DNA of 64,000 nt from the NCBI GenBank assembly GCA_004134985.1, contig REGQ01000059.1:1-64000 (forward strand). The letters run 5' to 3'. Origin of the DNA: Paenibacillaceae bacterium (GTDB taxonomy: Bacteria; Bacillota; Bacilli; Paenibacillales; Paenibacillaceae). Position numbers and translations under genes: made by a program. The notes beneath the pieces were generated by a model. That model saw only the letters and a program-made list of their open reading frames with translations, was not told the DNA's origin and searched no databases. Shown in pieces: positions 158 to 63,182 of the stretch; the stretch's first letter is position 1; each line of letters opens with the position of its first letter.

Positions 158-178
158 ATGTACTTTCCAGTCGTTTAA
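158..178 (+). CDS. Putative leader peptide 1 (MYFPVV)
   Basis: A six-codon ORF follows a strong ribosome-binding site (AAGGAGGAGG at 138-147). It ends 15 bases before the terminator-type hairpin at 194-230. Its size and position resemble the six-residue MsrDL leader (MYLIFM) upstream of streptococcal msr(D), where macrolide-dependent ribosome stalling prevents termination. The role here is inferred from that likeness and from position. No homology can be proved for so short a peptide. Confidence 0.5.
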   Translation: MYFPVV

Positions 179-193
179 GATAAGCTAGCAATG

Positions 194-230
194 AAAAAGC
201 GGATTTTTCCACGGATCGTGGGCTTTTTTT
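194..230 (+). terminator. Attenuator terminator upstream of the ABC-F gene
   Basis: An inner stem CCACG/CGTGG (209-213/217-221) sits inside an outer AAAAAGC/GCTTTTT pairing and is followed by seven T. It lies just after leader peptide 1 and well before the ABC-F gene, as expected of a conditional transcription terminator. Confidence 0.6.
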
Positions 231-435
231 GAGCTGCTTATTTTACGCGTGAAGGACATAGATCGCGATTTGGATAGTTTTTTTACTATGCCTTTTCGGC
301 GAGTTCTCTCTCGTGATAAATGCAGATCTAAGCCCACATGGTGGATTTGGACCTGTATTTTTTTATTGCCAAAAAACAATAAATGTCAACCCATTCGAAA
401 CTTAGATGAAATAAAAAGGAAAAGGAGTTATTAAA

Positions 436-12200: not shown

Positions 12201-12303
12201 GCAGGAAATTAGGCAGGAAGTTTCAATGTGAGCAGGTATGAGTGTTGACCAGAAGCGTTAGTCGAACATGATTTTTGATGGAACTAATGATCGCAGAGAT
12301 CAA

Positions 12304-12338
12304 AAAAAGAACCTGATGGTTTTATCAGGTTCTTTTTT
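12304..12338 (+). terminator. Rho-independent terminator
   Basis: AAAGAACCTGA pairs with TCAGGTTCTTT and is followed by a T run. It ends the crystallin/Vps62 transcript. Confidence 0.8.
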
Positions 12339-12413
12339 ATTGCATATAAACAGACACGATGATATAATCAGATCACGACTCATTAAATTTAGATGGACAT
12401 AATGGTTGTATCT

Positions 12414-12428
12414 TACACTTTAAGTGTA
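12414..12428 (+). promoter_or_regulatory. Palindromic operator candidate upstream of rph
   Basis: TACACTT and AAGTGTA flank one T, a perfect 7-bp-arm palindrome 60 bases before the rph start. The rifamycin-associated element known from actinobacterial rph genes was not seen. The regulator is unknown. Confidence 0.4.
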
Positions 12429-47064: not shown

Positions 47065-47322
47065 ATGTCAATCGACGGCGCGCAATGGGGTGGCGCACAT
47101 TTTATGCATATCGGCTACGGGGACAAGGATCGGCCAGAGGACGGGCATACCGCGGCGAAACCGCCAGTAAGAATCACTTCATGCAACTTGGAGGACGCCG
47201 TCGTGCGTGAAACTAATTTACGAGGCGTCAGTATCGAAGGGTTGACGATAGGCGGCAGCAGCATTGTTGCGGCAGCACAAGGCGGCCCTCGGTTGAGCAC
47301 CTTATTCGCGTTATTACGCTAA
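47065..47322 (+). pseudogene. Pentapeptide-repeat protein fragment
   Basis: The frame ends RITSCNLEDAVVRETNLRGVSIEGLTIGG, which has pentapeptide-repeat periodicity. It lacks a ribosome-binding site and most repeats. Its stop codon is the TAA inside GCTAACGGG of repeat site A (47320-47322). It looks like a truncated gene whose end has been set by the repeat. Confidence 0.45.
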
Positions 47323-47410
47323 CGGGGTACGATAGTTTAACCAAAACAGGGAGCAGACCGTCGCGGGGCTGCTCCCTGTTCTATTGAAGTAACGGGCAGG
47401 CTAGTCGAAC
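47311..47410 (+). repeat. Cassette-type repeat, site A
   Basis: The left half contains CGCTAACGGG and GATAGTTTAA. A perfect 12-bp hairpin (47345-47356/47369-47380) follows. The right half contains TTGAAGTAACGGGCAGG and CTAGTCGAAC. The two halves are related direct copies, and each is an imperfect inverted repeat around GGG. Total length is 100 bp. Confidence 0.75.
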
Positions 47411-47485
47411 AACTCAAAAAACTATTAGCAACCTTTTAATTCCATTTATCGTCTACAGATTAGAGGTTTTAAGGAGGTGATTATT

Positions 47486-47896
47486 GTGAAAAAGTATTTA
47501 CTTACCTTCTTCTTGCTAACTCTTATTATGATCCTTGGATGTAACGAGAAGAACCAGGACTCTATCCAGGAAAACGATGGAGTTTCAGTTAATCTGATAT
47601 GTAGTCGGCAGGACAATACAAATGAATGCACAGACAAGCAATTCAATGATCTCCAATCATTCCAAGTCTTTAAAACTGCTTTAGATAGTGCAGAGAAAAT
47701 GCCGGGTATACTTAATTATATAGCAGAATACAATTTGAAGATTAAATTTCAGGATCAGATAACAAAAGCTTACCATCTTTCATTAGGTACAAATAGGGAT
47801 ATGAAAGGGCTATTGGTAGACCTTGAAAATACTAATCAAGGTTATGAAATTCCTGTAGTAGATGCAAATAAATTAAGGGAATTGATAAAGGGTTAG
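47486..47896 (+). CDS. Hypothetical lipoprotein
   Basis: A protein of about 136 residues starts MKKYLLTFFLLTLIMILGC, a lipoprotein signal with Cys at 19. The mature part is hydrophilic with no recognised domain (ILNYIAEYNLKIKFQDQI). The GTG at 47486 follows a perfect AAGGAGGTGA. Its stop is ten bases before site B. It stands as a single-gene unit between sites A and B. Confidence 0.65.
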   Translation: MKKYLLTFFLLTLIMILGCNEKNQDSIQENDGVSVNLICSRQDNTNECTDKQFNDLQSFQVFKTALDSAEKMPGILNYIAEYNLKIKFQDQITKAYHLSLGTNRDMKGLLVDLENTNQGYEIPVVDANKLRELIKG

Positions 47897-47906
47897 TAAA
47901 TTTTGC

Positions 47907-48007
47907 ATTAAACTAACGGGACACGATAACTCAATGTTACCAAGAAAGCAGCTGATCAACGTGATCGGCTGCTTTTATTCAACTAACCGGCAGGATTGTT
48001 CAATAAC
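47907..48007 (+). repeat. Cassette-type repeat, site B
   Basis: The left half has ACTAACGGGACACGATAACT. The centre is a 14-bp stem (47945-47958/47962-47975) ending in TTTT. The right half has TTCAACTAACCGGCAGG and ATTGTTCAATAAC. The outer arms of the two halves are complementary at 8 of 11 positions, the best dyad of the family. Confidence 0.75.
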
Positions 48008-48104
48008 TTCGCGAATACTTTAAAATGGATAATTTTCGTGAAGTTCGTAAATACAGTATTAGCTGAAAGGTACGCAAAAATAAAATTATGAAAGGCGGAT
48101 TCTA

Positions 48105-48713
48105 TTGAAGCCAGGGATTATAGTTCTTCTTAATGGTACTTCAAGTTCTGGAAAGACGAGCATATCTAATGAATTATTAACTCAAATTGATATCCCATTT
48201 CAACATTTATCATTTGATAATTTTATTAATGGGCTATTTCATAGTTATAAAGATTTCATTAACAGCACATATCCGAGTATGGAAGCAAATGGTGCAGAGG
48301 ATGGACAATTAGTAAATCAAATTCTTGCAGATCCGTTGATTTCATTATACTACTCGACAATAAAACTATTTTCTGCGATGGGAAACAACGTAGTTGTAGA
48401 TTCTGTTATAGGTAATGACAAATGGTTCAATACTTGTATTGAATTATTATCAGATCACTCTGTCATATTCGTAGAAGTTAAATGTTCAAAGGAAGAACTT
48501 GCTAGAAGAGAACAACTTAGAGGAGACAGGGAGATTGGTTTAGCAAATTCACAATACGATAACGTGTATTGCTTTAATGAATATGATCTTGAATTTAATA
48601 CTGAAATAATGAGATCGAGTGAGTGTGCCAATGAGATATTAAATTTTATAAGATCTAATAAAGAATACACTGCTTTTAAGAAGTTGATTAAGGGGAAAAG
48701 TGTAAGTAAGTAG
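48105..48713 (+). CDS. Chloramphenicol-phosphotransferase-like P-loop kinase
   Basis: This 202-residue protein has the P-loop GTSSSGKTS (residues 10-18), LSFDNFINGLF as lid and acceptor region, NNVVVDSVIG and FVEVKCSKEELARREQLRGDREIGLA. This is the CPT family pattern, whose founding member phosphorylates chloramphenicol. Whether chloramphenicol or another small molecule is the substrate cannot be told. It starts at TTG after AAAGGCGG. It sits as a single gene between sites B and C. Confidence 0.8.
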   Translation: MKPGIIVLLNGTSSSGKTSISNELLTQIDIPFQHLSFDNFINGLFHSYKDFINSTYPSMEANGAEDGQLVNQILADPLISLYYSTIKLFSAMGNNVVVDSVIGNDKWFNTCIELLSDHSVIFVEVKCSKEELARREQLRGDREIGLANSQYDNVYCFNEYDLEFNTEIMRSSECANEILNFIRSNKEYTAFKKLIKGKSVSK

Positions 48714-48779
48714 TTCAAAGAAGGCGTATCCATCAGCTAACATCATATTCACGCTTCGGGTCATTCGGCTCTCGGTCCT

Positions 48780-48878
48780 GTTAAGCTAACGAGGAACTAT
48801 AGCTCAACAAGACTTTGACTTGGCCTCACGATCGGCTGCCGTTGTTCGTTGAAGTAACGGGCAGTTTTGCTTAATATC
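48780..48878 (+). repeat. Cassette-type repeat, site C
   Basis: The left half has TTAAGCTAACGAGGAACTAT and AGCTCAA. The centre keeps GGCTGCCGTTGTTCG but lost most of the left hairpin arm. The right half has TTGAAGTAACGGGCAG. The stop of the CPT-like gene lies 67 bases upstream. Confidence 0.7.
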
Positions 48879-48987
48879 CGCCTTCATATGTTATAGGTAA
48901 TTTGAATAAAAATTTAGAATTTAATTATTTAACACTATAATTCGCTTGGTCTATAATTACCATAAACCGGTTAATGGAGGTGTGGAT

Positions 48988-49464
48988 ATGAATGTTTCTT
49001 GTACTGCAGCTGGTTTGATTGTCAAAGATGGTCAAGTCCTTCTTGTAAAAGTTACTTATGGAGCAAATAAGGGACACTGGATGCTACCAGGAGGTTTTGT
49101 TGATGTAGGCGAGACATTTCAAGAAGCAGCAATAAGAGAAGTGCAAGAAGAGAGCGGATTGACTGCTAAAGTAAAAAGCCTTATAGGTGTAAGAGATGGA
49201 ATTAGAGCTCTTCCGAATGGCACTGAACACGGGATATACTTAGTATTTGAAATGGAAGTAATTTCTGGTGCTCTTTGTATTGATGGATATGAGGTAGCTG
49301 AAGCTAGATTCATACCTGTTGAAGAAGCATTGCGAGATCCATTGGTAATCGATTTAACGAAAGAAATGATACTTGCAAATCTTTCGAATAATAATGGGTT
49401 ACATCAACTGCAGAAATCAGTCCAAACTAACAATAGCTGGACTAAATATGAAGTTTTAGCTTGA
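48988..49464 (+). CDS. NUDIX hydrolase
   Basis: This protein of about 158 residues carries a full Nudix box [24 protein letters not shown] (GX5EX7REUXEEXGU) near residue 40. Such enzymes cleave nucleoside diphosphates linked to other groups. The specific substrate is unknown. The ATG at 48988 follows TGGAGGTG, so the frame from 48946 is not used. The stop lies 14 bases before site D. It is a single-gene unit between sites C and D. Confidence 0.87.
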
Positions 49465-49478
49465 AATTCAATTAAGAC

Positions 49479-49585
49479 ATTAAGCTAACGGGAAACGATA
49501 GTTGAATCTACTCATACACCGCGGCAGCCGGCCATACGATCGGCTGCCGTTGTTCGTTGAAGTAACGGGCAGGATACTGAAATTA
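49479..49585 (+). repeat. Cassette-type repeat, site D
   Basis: The best-preserved copy. The left half has TTAAGCTAACGGG and GATAGTTGAATC. The central stem CGGCAGCCG/CGGCTGCCG is at 49522-49530/49541-49549. The right half has TTGAAGTAACGGGCAGGATA. Length is 107 bp. Confidence 0.78.
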
Positions 49586-49685
49586 TATCTTCATTCCTAT
49601 CATTTCAAGATAATGTAGTGACGTAGGCACCCCTCAAAAATCCACCTTCTTTATTCAATCTTTCGTTTGTATCCTCTTAATTACT

Positions 49686-49730
49686 TGACAAAAGGTAACT
49701 AGTTAGATATTTTAATACATAACCAGTTAT
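49686..49730 (+). promoter_or_regulatory. Promoter and MarR-type operators
   Basis: TTGACA (49686-49691) and TATTTT (49709-49714) are 17 bases apart. TAACTAGTTA (49697-49706) is a perfect palindrome in the spacer. TAACCAGTTA (49721-49730) is a one-change copy downstream. They are likely sites for the MarR protein encoded next. Confidence 0.6.
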
Positions 49731-49749
49731 CTATTGTGGAGGTGGAAAA

Positions 49750-50211
49750 ATGAAATTTCCAATCGAAAAAAAAATCACACCTAAAGCATATGTTTATGGA
49801 TCAATTTTCTCATTGTCTAATCGTTTGCAACTTTTAGGCGATAGAAGATATAAGGAGCTTTCATTAAAACAAGCTTTTGTGGTGTGGAATATTTCTCTTT
49901 TTGATGATTACTTTCTTAACCTAAAAGATATTGCTCAAATGGTCGGTACTTCGAGTCAGAATGTGAAAAAAATCATAGATATTCTTGAGAAAAAAGGTTT
50001 TGTAGAAGTAGGAAAAGATGAAACAGACAGAAGGAGTTTGCGTGTCGCTTTATCAGCTAAGGGTAAAGAGTATTACTTGGAAAGAGGTAAGAAGGAAGAA
50101 CAGTATTTGGAGGAGTTATTTTCTGACTTTGATGATGAAATGCTTATGGGATTGTATCAAGGTCTATATAAACTTATGGAAAAAACAGCTCAAGAACAAG
50201 GGGGGAAATAA
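49750..50211 (+). CDS. MarR-family transcriptional regulator
   Basis: This 153-residue winged-helix protein has [58 protein letters not shown], with the conserved DxRxxxV wing. TGGAGGTGG precedes the ATG. It is followed one base later by an IMP dehydrogenase gene, so the two are coregulated. Two palindromes at its promoter suggest autorepression relieved by a ligand, perhaps a purine-pathway inhibitor. That is inference. Confidence 0.87.
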
Positions 50212-50212
50212 T

Positions 50213-51715
50213 ATGGCAGTTTATATGAATGAAGTATCACGCACCTTTGGTGAGTATTTACTAATACCAGGTTACTCATCTGTAGAGTGTATACCGGCAA
50301 ATGTTAGTTTACAGACACCCTTAGTGAAATTTAAAAAAGGAAATAAACCTCCTATGTCTTTGAATATTCCTATGACATCAGCAATTATGCAGTCTGTTTC
50401 TGATCATACAATGGCAATATCTTTAGCAAAAGAAGGTGGACTTTCTTTTATTTACGGATCACAATCTATTGAAAGTCAGGCACAAATGGTTGCTCGTGTT
50501 AAAAGTTATAGAGCTGGTTTTGTTGTTAGTGATTCTAATATATCTCCTGAAGATACTTTAGACGAACTGTTAATGTTAAAGAAGAAGACTAATCATTCGA
50601 CTGTAGCAGTAACAATTGATGGAAGTTCTAGAGGTAAATTATTAGGCATTGTAACTAGCAGAGATTATCGAGTTAGTCGGATGACTTTAGACACTAAAGT
50701 TAAAGATTTTATGACACCATTCGAAGACTTAATCTGTGGTAATAAAGATACCACATTAAAAGAAGCGAATAATATTATATGGGAGCACAAATTAAATTGC
50801 CTTCCAATCATTGATGGTGAACAAAGATTGATTTCTATGGTATTTCGGAAAGATTACAATACTAATAAGGAAAATGAGAATGAGTTGATTGATGAATCAA
50901 AAAGATATATGGTTGGTGCAGGTATTAATACTAGAGATTATGCTGAACGAATTCCAGCATTACTTCAAACTGGAGTTGATGTTCTTTGTATTGACAGTTC
51001 CGAAGGGTTTACAGAATGGCAAAAGATTGTTCTTGAATATGTCCGGAAGAATTATGGTGATACCGTAAAAATTGGGGCAGGAAATATAGTTGATAAAGAA
51101 GGTTTCCGTTTCCTTGCCGAAGCTGGTGCCGATTTTGTAAAAGTAGGAATTGGCGGCGGTGCAATTTGTATTACACGAGAACAAAAAGGCATAGGGAGAG
51201 GTCAAGCTACCGCATTAATTGAGGTAGCGAAGGCTCGTGATGAATATTTTAATGAGACAGGAATCTATGTACCAATTTGTTCTGATGGAGGTATTGTACA
51301 CGATTATCACATTACATTGGCACTAGCTATGGGAGCAGATTTTCTAATGTTAGGAAGATATTTTGCCCGATTTGATGAAAGCCCCACTGAAAAAGTGAAT
51401 ATAAACGGTAATTACATGAAGGAGTATTGGGGAGAAGGAAGTACAAGGGCAAAAAATTGGCAGAGATATGACTTAGGCGGTGACGAAAAGCTTTCTTTTG
51501 AAGAAGGAGTTGATTCGTTTGTACCATATGCAGGAAGTTTAGAAGATAATGTTGGACTTTCTTTAAGCAAAGTACGTTCAACAATGTGTAATTGTGGTTA
51601 CCTGACACTTCCTGAACTACAAAAAAATGCTAAGATAACCTTAGTTTCTTCTACAAGTATTGTTGAGGGTAGTGCACACGATGTTCTACTTAAAGATAGT
51701 CGTCAGATATTTTAA
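50213..51715 (+). CDS. guaB: IMP dehydrogenase family protein with CBS domains
   Basis: This 500-residue TIM-barrel protein has active-site Cys319 in [37 protein letters not shown] beginning the CBS insert (about 98-220), [30 protein letters not shown] and the flap region [20 protein letters not shown] converts IMP to XMP with NAD in GTP synthesis. Its N-terminus ([20 protein letters not shown]) belongs to a divergent branch unlike B. subtilis GuaB. ATG 50213 follows GGGGGG, one base after the MarR stop. It is probably an inducible extra copy that resists an inhibitor. GMP reductase is less likely because the CBS domains are present. Confidence 0.85.
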
Positions 51716-52034
51716 CAAATAATTGTTAGCGAATCCCTTACTGGATATATTAGATTTTTTATATAAATGAACTGTAGCTTTAGTATGTTAAGGAACTGTG
51801 ATTATATAAGTCCCCTGTTTAAGCACTACATGCTACCCGCGTACGTTCTTTAATAGGTAATTGGAAATGGAATATAATGATGAGGACGTAGCCCAAGCGA
51901 AGGCGCGGGAGCGTTCTTTTTATTAAACGGGGAGTTTAAACGCAAAAAAAGAGGCTATATAGTTTTGAATTGCGTGAAGGTCAGTCAGACGTAATAATAG
52001 AAAAGAGGGAAACAAAGTTGGGAGGCAGGAGAAC
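51716..52034. other. Intergenic region, no intact gene
   Basis: A 19-codon frame at 51868-51927 (MEYNDEDVAQAKARERSFY) has no ribosome-binding site and may be a gene remnant. No repeat half-site was found right after the IMPDH gene, unlike the other units. Confidence 0.3.
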
Positions 52035-52301
52035 ATGTCGAACATGGACAAGGAGACAAAGGCTCTGGAGAAATCGACAACGATATATGAAACAGGCGAG
52101 ATCATAACGGCGAAAGTGTACAAGGTCAGCCAGGAGCAGAAAGAGGAACTCGATCGTCTGTCAGCTGAGAGGCACGAAAAGTTACTGGAGGAGGCAATAC
52201 CGAAGACCCGAGAGCGGTACGAGCAGCTAGTCAAGCTCCGGCAGCAACAGCCGCAGACTGACGACGGTGGCAAGCCTCCGAGTGATTCCGCTAACGGGTA
52301 A
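52035..52301 (+). CDS. Small charged hypothetical protein
   Basis: This 88-residue protein is rich in Glu, Lys and Arg and is predicted to form a long helix (VSQEQKEELDRLSAERHEKLLEEAIPKTRERYEQLVKLRQQ). GGGAGGCAGGAGA lies upstream of the ATG. The last residues (SANG) and the stop codon are encoded by half-site E (GCTAACGGGTAA), so the repeat fixes the C-terminus. The function is unknown. Confidence 0.55.
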   Translation: MSNMDKETKALEKSTTIYETGEIITAKVYKVSQEQKEELDRLSAERHEKLLEEAIPKTRERYEQLVKLRQQQPQTDDGGKPPSDSANG

Positions 52302-52319
52302 ATTTAGTTCAATAAAATC
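52285..52319 (+). repeat. Cassette-type repeat, left half of site E
   Basis: CCGCTAACGGG and TTTAGTTCAATAAAATC match the left half-site. Instead of a hairpin and right half at about 60 bases, the right half lies 445 bases further on at 52764-52791, with a RibD fragment in between. Confidence 0.6.
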
Positions 52320-52341
52320 GCTTTTACCACTTTTGAGCAAC

Positions 52342-52767
52342 ATGCTAAAATACATTAGTACCAGTTACCCTATTAACGTATCTTTGGACGGTTACATGAA
52401 GGACGAGCGCTCCAATATCGAGTGGACGATCTCCGATGACGAGGTGTTTGCGTTCTGGACTGACTTCCAGTGTCCGATTGGCACCTACCTATACGGGCGT
52501 CGAATGTACGAGTCGATGGTGTACTGGGAGACGGCGAGCGCCAAAAAAGGCGATCAACCGGAGGTAATGCGGGAACTCGCGCAGATCTGGCGAGCTGCTG
52601 AGAAGATCGTGTATTCCCGGACCCTTCAGGCGGTTTCAAGCGCCAGGACTAGGATCGAGCGCGAATTCGATCCTGATGCGATTCGGAGGCTGAAAGAGTC
52701 TTCAGAAGCCGACATTACGATTGGCGGCCCCGAGCTTGCGGCGTGGCAGCTCTTTTTCGTTTGTTGA
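52342..52767 (+). pseudogene. RibD/dihydrofolate-reductase-like gene fragment
   Basis: The frame starts MLKYISTSYPINVSLDGYMKDERSNIEWTISDDEV and shows YGRRMYESMVYWETA, YSRTLQ and ADITIGGPELAA, the pattern of RibD C-terminal-domain proteins of about 185 residues. After GGPELAA it runs into the right half-site of E and stops at TGA 52765-52767, so the last 45 or so residues are missing. Both edges coincide with half-site boundaries. Confidence 0.65.
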
Positions 52768-52791
52768 AGTAACAAAGCAAGATAGTGAAAC
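52764..52791 (+). repeat. Cassette-type repeat, right half of site E
   Basis: TTGAAGTAAC, then a changed centre AAAGCA, then AGATAGTGAAAC match the right half-site. TTTTTCGTTTG just before it resembles the DNA after the hairpin in sites C and D. Confidence 0.6.
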
Positions 52792-52812
52792 GTATATGAG
52801 GTGAAATCAAGT

Positions 52813-53385
52813 ATGGAATATGATGAACTGATACGTAAAATGAAGGATGCAGGAGTTAGGTTTGCAGAAGGATTATCTGAAGCTGAGTTTGAAGTTGTTG
52901 AGCAAATATACGATATTAAATTTCCTCCTGACTTAAAGCAGTTCTTTTCGATTGCTTTACCTATCTCAGACAAATTTAATAATTGGAGAGATACAACAGA
53001 ACATAATGTTCAATTAATACAGGGAAGATTTAAATGGTGTTTAGAGGGCATGTTGTTTGATGTTAAACATAATAATTTTTGGATAAAAGAATGGGGAAGT
53101 AAGCCCGATGATTTTGAATCAGCCAAGAATATTTGTACTGAGCATTATTTGAGAGCACCAAAACTAATCCCGATTTACTCACACAGATATATTCCTCAGA
53201 CTCCCCTGGAAGCAGGGAATCCAATACTGTCTGTTTATCAAACAGACATCATTTATTATGGTGAAAATTTGAACTCTTACTTATTGGTCGAGTTCAACTT
53301 GAAGAGATATGATGAAATAATATTTGAAAGTATTAAAAGGATACCTTTTTGGAGCGATATTATTGAGATGTGGGAAGTGGAATAA
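52813..53385 (+). CDS. SMI1/KNR4 (SUKH) domain protein
   Basis: This protein of about 190 residues has LSEAEFEVVEQIYDIKFPPDLKQFFSIALPIS near the N-terminus and YLRAPKLIPIYSHRYIPQTPLEAGNPILSVYQTDIIYYGENLNSYLLVEF in the centre. The first is the SUKH opening motif. SUKH proteins often are immunity proteins against contact-dependent toxins, but no toxin gene is linked here. ATG 52813 follows GAGGTG. A GTG at 52801 is a less likely start. It lies between the E right half and site F. Confidence 0.75.
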   Translation: MEYDELIRKMKDAGVRFAEGLSEAEFEVVEQIYDIKFPPDLKQFFSIALPISDKFNNWRDTTEHNVQLIQGRFKWCLEGMLFDVKHNNFWIKEWGSKPDDFESAKNICTEHYLRAPKLIPIYSHRYIPQTPLEAGNPILSVYQTDIIYYGENLNSYLLVEFNLKRYDEIIFESIKRIPFWSDIIEMWEVE

Positions 53386-53405
53386 TACTCCCTTGTCACA
53401 AGACT

Positions 53406-53439
53406 CATTACGCTAACTGGGAACAATAGCGCAATAACC
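53406..53439 (+). repeat. Cassette-type repeat, site F (left half)
   Basis: TTACGCTAACTGGGAACAAT and AGCGCAATAA match the left half-site. A normal right half is not clear; TATCAATAGTAAC near 53456 may be its remnant. The SUKH gene ends 20 bases upstream. Confidence 0.55.
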
Positions 53440-53646
53440 TTTAAGAAAGGCAGTTATCAATAGTAACTAAAATACGGTTGTCCCATTTTTTTGTATAGTG
53501 TAATATGGAAATATCCTTTGAGAAAGCGAGTGATTATTATGAGAACCATTAAATTCGTTGGAGAAACAGTTATTTTTGAGGCACGGAGGGGTTAATTGCT
53601 TTAACTGATCCTTTCCGTACAAATCCAAAACGGAGGGAAAGTATAT

Positions 53647-54423
53647 ATGTCTTTTAGTGAATATGGTGAACTATGCACGGAGGTCTATGACCTAACCAAG
53701 GAAATTGGGCAATCATTCAGCGGAGACGTTGAATATTATCTCGAAAAACTTAAAGATTGTAAGGGGCGCATTCTGGAGGCCATGGTTGGCTCTGGACGTG
53801 TAATCATACCGCTTCTTGAATCTGGGTTGATCGTCGACGGAGTGGACTACTCTCCGAAAATGTTGGCTTCATGCCGTAGACGTTGTGATGAGCGCGGCCT
53901 AACCCCTAACTTATATGAGGCCAACTTACAGGAACTTTCTTTACCGCAAAAGTATGAGGCAATTATCATCCCGGGGGGCTCATTTTTATTAATTGAACAA
54001 CGGGAAGAGTCGCTGCGGGTGCTACATCGATTGTATGATCATTTGGAACCAGGCGGACAGTTGATTCTTGACCTGTTTTTGCCAGATAACAATTACAATA
54101 GTTCTGAGATCGGGCGATGGGGCGGAGCCGCAACTTATCACTTGCCAAACGGCGACCTCATCACAATAGAAGAAAAATGTGTGGAAACTGATTTATTTTA
54201 TAATCAATACCGCATCAGCTACTTGAAATATGAAAAGTGGCGTGACGGCGTGTTGATCCAAACGGAATTGCAGCGCTTTGCATTGCGGTGGTACGGTATC
54301 GAGGAATTCAAGTTCATATTAGAAAGTATTGGGTTTTCTGATGTCAATGTTTGTGCTGACTTTGAGGATGGAAAAAAGCCTACACGCGGTGATCAGAAGT
54401 TCGTTTATCAAGCCATAAAATAA
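53647..54423 (+). CDS. Class I SAM-dependent methyltransferase
   Basis: This 258-residue protein has motif I RILEAMVGSGRVIIPLLESG, acidic VDGVDYSPKMLASCRRR, and YEAIIIPGGSFLLIEQREESLRVLHRLYDHLEPGGQLILDLF. The usual DxGxGxG is EAMVGSG. GGAGGGAAA precedes the ATG. TTTCCGT upstream could pair with ACGGA beside the ribosome-binding site, a weak hint of control. A short 18-codon frame (53539-53595) lies before it. The target is unknown. Confidence 0.82.
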   Translation: MSFSEYGELCTEVYDLTKEIGQSFSGDVEYYLEKLKDCKGRILEAMVGSGRVIIPLLESGLIVDGVDYSPKMLASCRRRCDERGLTPNLYEANLQELSLPQKYEAIIIPGGSFLLIEQREESLRVLHRLYDHLEPGGQLILDLFLPDNNYNSSEIGRWGGAATYHLPNGDLITIEEKCVETDLFYNQYRISYLKYEKWRDGVLIQTELQRFALRWYGIEEFKFILESIGFSDVNVCADFEDGKKPTRGDQKFVYQAIK

Positions 54424-54434
54424 TGATTCGCGCA

Positions 54435-54467
54435 AGCTCCTCGTACTGTAAAGTATGAGGAGCTGTT
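54435..54467 (+). terminator. Terminator after the methyltransferase gene
   Basis: AGCTCCTC pairs with GAGGAGCT (54435-54442/54457-54464) with further GTAC pairing inside, then GTTT. It sits directly before half-site G. Confidence 0.6.
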
Positions 54468-54491
54468 TACGCTAACGGAAGCAGAGCATCC
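54466..54491 (+). repeat. Cassette-type repeat, site G (truncated)
   Basis: TTTACGCTAACGGAAGCAG matches only the first part of the left half-site. The rest is absent. It is the last recognisable site of the series. Confidence 0.4.
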
Positions 54492-63154: not shown

Positions 63155-63182
63155 GTTAAGCTATCGGGCAGATTACGTTAAC
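63155..63182. repeat. Cassette-type right half-site, solitary
   Basis: GTTAAGCTATCGGGCAGATT and ACGTTAAC have the form of the right half-site with CGGGCAG at the centre and GTTAA/TTAAC ends. No left partner is found at the usual distance. Confidence 0.4.

Follow-up and report, generated by a model that had tools for sequence, protein, structure and literature searches.

A one-way array of gene modules between paired core sites in a Paenibacillaceae bacterium, probably served by an Xer-type tyrosine recombinase

The stretch of DNA analyzed here (the window: 64,000 nucleotides, positions 1 to 64,000 of the forward strand of contig REGQ01000059.1 in assembly GCA_004134985.1, from a Paenibacillaceae bacterium) contains, from 47313 to approximately 54490, a row of plus-strand genes with a repeat after each. 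The genes are mutually unrelated and code for a lipoprotein-like protein, a CPT-like kinase, a NUDIX protein, a MarR regulator together with an IMPDH-like protein, a small coil protein, a SUKH-like protein and a methyltransferase. A previous sequence-only reading had proposed seven repeats, A to G, behind plus-strand genes, with unrelated units between them; the gene contents bear out the latter point, and the repeats are real, clustered and on the same strand, with A to D complete and E to G decayed. We are fairly confident that these genes form an array of a cassette system in which a dedicated Xer-type tyrosine recombinase is the driving enzyme.

The repeat of approximately 100 bp consists of two directly repeated core sites flanking a terminator-like hairpin. 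In a complete site, a LEFT core of 29 bp (consensus TTaAgCTAAC-GGGnAAC-GATAGtTnAA) is followed by approximately 40 bp with the hairpin and by a RIGHT core of 28 bp (consensus TTaAgCTAAC-GGGCAG-GATAGttnAA), in agreement with the earlier proposal that the two halves are related and that each is an imperfect dyad about GGG. The RIGHT core has a 10-6-10 layout with the spacer GGGCAG in 163 of 210 unique sites, and the LEFT core has a 10-7-10 layout in which the last spacer base is C in 202 of 210; CAG is found at the matching LEFT spacer position in none of them. Pairing between the arms inside one site is at most weak (p 0.003 for the downstream site over 481 units of all kinds; p 0.06 over 257 RIGHT-to-LEFT units). 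The interior of the 210 unique sites has a mean length of 39 nt, 11.3 base pairs and -16.2 kcal/mol, with an A-rich stretch on the 5' side and a T-rich stretch on the 3' side, and therefore looks like an intrinsic terminator that may stop transcription.

In the window, scored with position weight matrices (PWMs) for LEFT and RIGHT, the full copies A to D, which belonged to the training set of these matrices, reach 37.6-48.0 bits in LEFT and 27.8-34.1 bits in RIGHT. All sites lie on the plus strand. Site A (47313..47410) has LEFT at 47313-47341 (38.6 bits), a terminator-like hairpin and RIGHT at 47383-47410 (27.8 bits), and folds as DNA with a z of -2.8; site B (47907..48004) has LEFT at 47907-47935 (40.3 bits) and RIGHT at 47977-48004 (32.9 bits) around its hairpin and a fold z of -3.8; site C (48780..48875) has LEFT at 48780-48808 (37.6 bits), a hairpin and RIGHT at 48848-48875 (34.1 bits), and its whole-site fold does not exceed that of shuffles (z -0.8); and site D (49479..49583) has LEFT at 49479-49507 (48.0 bits), a hairpin and RIGHT at 49556-49583 (34.0 bits), with a fold z of -2.6. 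The LEFT core of site E (52285..52313, 28.4 bits) is separated by a DHFR-like gene fragment from a decayed RIGHT core read by eye approximately 450 bp away (52763..52790), inside the spacer of which, at 52777, homology of the SUKH unit in genome G226 begins. Site F retains a LEFT core (53407..53435, 28.9 bits) and has lost RIGHT, and site G (54466..54482) consists by eye of the left arm of LEFT only; the RIGHT positions of E and F and site G all fall below 8 bits in the PWM scan. A lone RIGHT core (26.2 bits) lies downstream of the array at 63155..63182. The RIGHT 16-mer, with up to 3 mismatches, has 5 matches in the window against 0.42 expected, a number reached by none of 100 shuffles; four matches lie inside the array, and the fifth, on the minus strand, lies outside it. 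Evidence from the 9-mer GCTAACGGG, allowing one mismatch, is weak: it matches 15 times where 8.9 matches are expected, and 2 of 100 shuffles reach that number.

The units between these sites have relatives in other genomes. Module 1 (47394..47924, +; ends placed provisionally from the spacers) carries the lipoprotein-like open reading frame (ORF) at 47477-47896, which has no Pfam match; 47390-47928 is 90% identical in G238 (locus L330) and 89% identical in G355 (L334), with core sites near both ends there. Module 2 (47988..48797, +) carries the CPT-like kinase (48105-48713; PF07931, 7.9e-39), and 47983-48813 is 96% identical in G352 (L318), where it lies between RIGHT and LEFT sites and the outer arms differ. 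Module 3 (48859..49496, +) carries the NUDIX protein (48946-49464; PF00293, 5.3e-20) and is 85-87% identical from 48855 to 49503-49507 in G209, G333 and G330 (L327-L329). Module 4 (49567..51804, +; right end uncertain) departs from the single-gene pattern in that it contains two genes, for the MarR regulator (49750-50211) and the IMPDH-like protein (50213-51715); from 49575-49606 onwards it is 94-95% identical in G158, G235, G151, G177, G142 and G141, with a core site no more than 140 bp from one end in three of the six (L312-L314) and none in L315-L317. Between the IMPDH and coil protein genes, an element of approximately 130 bp (51806-51939) is 93-97% identical in G284, G259, G109 and G111 and in the latter two immediately precedes a CPT-like match. 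The coil protein ORF (52035..52301, +; 88 aa, no Pfam match) ends at site E, and its 3' 145 bp are 91% identical in G352, stopping at the site.

Within site E, the DHFR-like gene fragment (52366-52739) is matched in many genomes with near-identical ends, at 81-97% among the matches listed, and no core sites lie near the four relatives fetched (L336-L339). Module 5 (52777..53424, +) contains an ORF at 52801-53385 without a Pfam match, for which we keep the earlier label SUKH-like; 52777-53423 is 83% identical in G226 (L333), with a core site near one end there. Module 6 (53494..54478, +) contains the methyltransferase (53647-54423; PF13649, 2.8e-12) and is 83% identical in G364 (L323), where both ends have a site nearby, and 78-79% identical in L331, L332 and L335, without sites. 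The adjacent segment 54478-54874, from the truncated site G onwards, recurs at G000:C65:167513-167904 with 88% identity. The matches above the Rfam gathering threshold in the window are ncr1015 and sRNA_1300, at 12301-12418 (-) and 167-365 (+).

Units of this type are exchanged between species. Among 94 pairs of homologous non-recombinase units (some counted twice; same-genome pairs above 98% excluded), the upstream neighbors were unrelated in all 56 cases judged and the downstream neighbors in 52 of 55. A unit of 997 bp is 98-99% identical from edge to edge in G352, G364, G322 and Paenibacillus sp. H1-7, and its four copies are followed by four different sequences, one of which is a recombinase module. 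A HisB-like unit in another array of the genome from which the window derives (L006:2062-2862) is 96% identical in Paenibacillus sp. RC67, with the identity ending at sites, and a 792-bp unit occurs twice in G352, in copies that are 97% identical and have different neighbors. Units from the window array have relatives elsewhere with 78-98% identity: of 29 loci fetched because they share one, seven have core sites near both ends (83-96% identity), seven near one end and 15 near neither.

The edges of the shared sequences locate the exchange. In a crossover map restricted to pairs with at least 85% identity, non-homologous neighbors and a shared part ending no more than 10 bp from a site, and from which double-fetched units were removed, the excess of identity over random sites starts directly after GGGCAG on the upstream side (22 pairs) and runs as far as the GGG of the downstream LEFT core (28 pairs), and the outer arms have no clear excess. 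For example, the CPT units of the window and of G352 have GGCAGGATTGTTCAAT in common at the start and GTTAAGCTAACGAGG at the end, and the arms outside differ. Because units are shared across species and their homology ends inside core-site spacers, we suggest that the genes moved as units, and the recurrence of whole units beside unrelated neighbors bears out the earlier view of the region as a cassette array. Exchange in the spacer fits the way in which a tyrosine-recombinase core site should behave, each half of the repeat acting alone. The central hairpin differs among copies of one gene unit; a test by hairpin identity of whether it travels with its gene had only 5 and 10 pairs, too few to tell, and it is from the aligned unit examples together with the crossover map that we conclude that the hairpin does not stay with the gene. 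In L319 (G099:C1:4832687-4836479) the CPT unit starts with GGGCAG beside DNA that is not site-like, perhaps reflecting use of a secondary target.

The distribution of the sites was assessed with a model built from 11 sites of the window genome. RNAalifold gave no consensus structure for the MAFFT alignment of these sites; the model is therefore based on sequence only, and later covariation tests are for that reason unbiased. In the window genome (7.71 Mb) it identifies 15 sites at E<=1e-7, 11 of which are the training sites, in three clusters (C14:47-49.6k, which is the window array, C14:82.7-92.6k and C34:0.8-4.0k). The sequence-only reading had held that repeats found genome-wide beside core genes, with no exchange of units, would speak against cassettes; in this genome the strong sites instead lie in three clusters, and units are exchanged between species. 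At E<=0.001, sites are present in 331 of 394 genomes of the family and in 16 of 19 genera, with 63 genomes lacking them; only approximately 10 candidates per genome were scored, which makes the site numbers of single genomes minimum values. Of the seven genomes of the genus, three match, one with a single weak site. A blastn search of plasmid and phage collections with one site gave no match.

The sites point one way. In 128 stretches scanned at a PWM score of at least 14, 868 elements are on the strand that predominates in their stretch and 4 are on the other strand, one-element stretches being counted as pure; some stretches were fetched twice, as a place and as a named contig, such that the counts given here hold repeats unless called unique. 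A shuffled copy of the same 1.97 Mb yields 2 sites at this threshold. In G352, 122 elements occupy one 180-kb stretch, all on one strand. The units between sites (n=656) have a median length of 740 bp, and among 415 unique units behind a RIGHT site 359 contain an ORF of 60 aa or more, and the longest such ORF is sense in 300 units and antisense in 59. A promoter belonging to the unit start is not clearly supported, as -10-like matches are just mildly richer in the first 80 bp.

A recombinase of approximately 280 aa that matches the Pfam phage-integrase model is encoded within or beside the arrays of G352, G285, G329 and others; it lies inside the array in G352 and G329 and at the downstream end in G285. 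Its nearest models are XerC (195.4 bits), XerA (194.8 bits) and XerD (194.1 bits), all below cut-off, and the nearest solved structure is XerD 1a0p (6.5e-36); against the IntI model TIGR02249 it scores 90.8 and 83.2 bits, with a cut-off of 265. The 18 intact copies aligned, out of 30 loci (L136, L145, L151 and L156, which have stop codons, and eight others were excluded), are highly conserved, and the residues R, K, H, R, H and Y, which we take to be the catalytic residues, are invariant. The earlier suggestion of a recombinase absent from the window was thus right in that a tyrosine recombinase resides in such arrays elsewhere, and wrong in the type anticipated, the enzyme being Xer-like and not IntI. 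Matches at E<=1e-30, distant families and broken copies included, occur in 113 of 394 genomes, and a single genome may have several copies, full or partial; at E<=1e-60 there are 65 genomes, all 65 with sites (P 4e-6, not corrected for phylogeny).

The recombinase gene is itself framed by core sites. Of the 30 loci, 25 have an upstream core, 20 a downstream core and 18 both, compared to 0 of 300 control windows. The upstream core, which is LEFT-type in 24 of 25 cases, starts 89-106 bp before the coding match, and the downstream RIGHT core starts 20-51 bp past its end (20 of 30). Framed in this way, the gene occupies the place where other sites have the hairpin. A leader hairpin over the ribosome-binding site is predicted at all 30 loci (no shuffle control), with compensatory changes in 4 of 11 pairs in the alignment of 18 loci. 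On two plasmids, labelled as from Arthrobacter citreus NEB 577 and Sporosarcina psychrophila, recombinases with 48-52% identity are found, and by eye single genes are followed there by LEFT and/or RIGHT cores of the plasmids' own type, some of the gaps holding complete LEFT-terminator-RIGHT sites; on the Arthrobacter citreus plasmid the recombinase lies between LEFT and RIGHT but antisense, followed by eight single genes on the opposite strand. A divergent recombinase beside sites of its own type suggests that enzyme and site evolved together. Recombinases on viral contigs (25-53% identity, best full-length 45%) were not counted as the same family.

A second family of cassette arrays was found in G198 (L345, G198:C29:126001-146000) and G300 (L346, G300:C10:1066001-1082468), with repeats of 147-195 bp between single genes. 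These repeats have the architecture of attC, NNNNTAAC...ATTCACG ... CGTGAAT...GTTANNNN, and the start of a cassette is complementary to its own 5' box; they look like true integron arrays or clusters of attC sites lacking integron integrases (CALIN). The CPT unit of the window carries an attC-like repeat remnant at each end (48046-48065 and 48734-48753), which resembles what would be left if one system had captured a cassette belonging to the other. In the window and in G352 the CPT gene lies between core sites, in G198 and G300 it lies between attC-like repeats, and in G192 no complete site of either type is close by.

Combining the sites and their common orientation with the modules shared across species, the exchange points in the spacers, the swapped downstream modules and the recombinase module, all as read from the genomes, our best guess is an Xer-type cassette system analogous to the dif modules of Acinetobacter with its own mobile recombinase. 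In this model, (i) each half of the repeat would be an independent double-stranded core site with two inverted 10-bp arms around a spacer, and a module would extend from the right arm of one core site through the left arm of the next, with gene modules mostly starting at RIGHT and ending at LEFT, and with the reverse arrangement, LEFT to RIGHT, in terminator modules and in the recombinase modules of other genomes; (ii) the recombinase would cut within the GGG spacer, and matching spacers would recombine (RIGHT with RIGHT, LEFT with LEFT), excising circles of gene plus terminator that could reinsert at any matching site; and (iii) the hairpins would stop transcription and in that way insulate cassettes, and the leader hairpin would block expression of the recombinase from read-through transcripts. 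The window array, which has no recombinase, may be moved in trans or may be an orphan.

Several observations weigh against such a dedicated system. Because LEFT has a different spacer from RIGHT, two kinds of exchange would be needed to move one gene module on its own. Sites are present in 331 and the recombinase in 113 of 394 genomes, such that the enzyme was not found in most site-bearing genomes; host Xer enzymes, or recombinase copies that were lost or not assembled, may account for this gap. Conversely, six of the 113 genomes, all with matches weaker than 1e-58, have no sites. The window genome has no recombinase match at 1e-30 in its draft assembly of 66 contigs, and none of its 19 phage-integrase matches lies on C14 or C34, the contigs with strong sites; in the lack of a close copy, the window array may be an orphan. 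At 12 of the 30 recombinase loci no core is recognizable on at least one side; among these are loci at contig ends, loci whose core has a small indel and decayed copies. Because core sites are absent near 15 of the 29 loci sharing a window unit, several genes also occur outside the system. Finally, we saw no excision product, circle or strain-level gain or loss, and no syntenic empty locus for the window array in the six other genomes of the genus.

Were the array a true integron, the 100-bp repeat would be an attC folded as a single strand and moved by an unseen IntI. The attC box is GTTRRRY, which the 3' end of the consensus, GTTnAAT, can fit, and two simple sites around a variable hairpin behind same-strand, mostly single-gene cassettes exchanged as units are what an integron would provide. 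The two halves of the repeat nevertheless show no covariation in 210 unique sites (p 0.77 and 0.998 relative to shuffled). In an array of attC sites, each cassette would be expected to begin with sequence matching the 5' box of its own attC; the ends of 257 units do not covary (p 0.17), whereas the attC-like arrays of G198 and G300, used as a positive control, are clearly positive (16 cassettes, 3.44 of 4 against 2.32, 0 of 5000 shuffles) and are weakly positive also in the within-site test (21 sites, p 0.019). The crossover lies in the GGG spacer, upstream of GATAGTT, and not at a 3' G/TTRRRY box, and the linked recombinase, at 90.8 bits, is far below the IntI cut-off of 265. A family search for IntI gave 0 of 394 genomes at 1e-50, but the control genomes were also silent and this does not indicate absence. 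Because the halves do not covary, the crossover is at GGG and the recombinase is not IntI, we conclude that the system is not an integron, an explanation that is now very improbable; the attC analogy of the sequence-only reading thus fails as a mechanism, and of its comparison of the central hairpins there remains a variable hairpin between two halves, but one that is terminator-like and differs between copies of a unit.

A terminator-bearing mobile repeat, similar to a miniature inverted-repeat transposable element (MITE), could insert behind genes that are themselves immobile, an alternative that the sequence-only reading had allowed for. The terminator-like interior, the 15 of 29 shared genes without sites and the LEFT and RIGHT ends that terminator and recombinase modules share, like those of non-autonomous and autonomous forms, would fit, but gene units that are 93-99% identical across species beside unrelated neighbors, with homology ending inside sites and different modules attached, and in a single orientation throughout, make it improbable. 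Reshuffling of genes by ordinary homologous recombination between dispersed repeats would explain why the repeats are similar and in one orientation; RecA-dependent exchange, however, normally uses longer stretches than imperfect repeats of approximately 28 bp, and with exchange confined to a spacer of 6-7 bp we find this extremely improbable. A different objection accepts the cores and modules and assigns the work to a host XerC/XerD-type pair or another recombinase, with the array-linked gene as a passenger. The excess of sites over recombinases and the closeness of the enzyme to the XerC, XerA and XerD models could be read in this way, and in Acinetobacter host XerC/XerD move the dif modules (PMC13141974, available text). 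We consider it rather unlikely, given that strong recombinase matches always co-occur with sites (65 of 65 genomes), that the ends of recombinase modules are of the same kind as those of terminator modules and that the divergent recombinases of the Bacillales plasmids, by eye, lie beside correspondingly divergent sites. We therefore favor the dedicated Xer-type system.

This system shares with the dif (pdif) modules, according to the available text of PMC13141974, discrete genes between short arm-spacer-arm cores, Xer-type recombinases, two alternating module classes and the importance of spacer identity. The two arms and 6-bp spacer of dif cores are found in RIGHT (10-6-10), whereas LEFT departs from this layout with 10-7-10. 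In Acinetobacter, the same text describes plasmid-borne modules moved by XerC/XerD of the host, with neighboring sites inversely oriented and C and D modules alternating (PMC13141974); here, in contrast, sites point one way (868 against 4), arrays are long and lie on chromosome-sized contigs (e.g. G285, G322 and G233), terminator modules alternate with genes and the dedicated recombinase is itself a module. Like chromosomal integrons, superintegrons and CALIN, the arrays are long, same-strand series of functionally unrelated single genes with units shared across species, and as in integrons a repeat in which two simple sites flank a hairpin lies behind each gene; unlike in integrons, the recombinase is not IntI and, in the arrays read for this (G352, G329), is not anchored to an array end, there is no signature of a folded attC, the crossover is in the GGG spacer and the hairpin does not stay with the gene. 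The enzyme belongs to the same family as XerC, XerD and archaeal XerA and has the same catalytic residues, but differs in scoring below their cut-offs, in being encoded in arrays and in having core sites and a leader hairpin of its own. As in MITEs and other non-autonomous elements, the ends of terminator modules match those of recombinase modules (LEFT upstream in 24 of 30, RIGHT downstream in 20 of 30).

On this basis we consider it probable that most Paenibacillaceae possess a third, independent cassette platform beside integrons and dif modules. Its Xer-like recombinase would be self-mobile, a cassette in its own right with a leader that blocks translation, and would build one-way arrays in which genes alternate with interchangeable terminator modules; the platform would also take up integron-type cassettes, as the CPT unit of the window, with both attC-like halves retained, would exemplify. 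A literature search gave no account of this system among the matches listed; subscription papers and preprints were outside its scope, and an earlier description is therefore possible.

According to the available text of PMC9024848, integrons occur only very occasionally in Firmicutes, for reasons that are unclear, and the sole complete Firmicutes integron in that survey is from Limnochorda pilosa. A cassette system with its own enzyme, and with sites in 331 of 394 Paenibacillaceae genomes, would help to fill this gap and would naturally supply soil bacteria with accessory genes. It would also offer a second setting in which to test the rules of cassette exchange and the way cassettes form; for the latter, the CPT gene, found in core-site, attC-like and site-free settings, would provide direct material.

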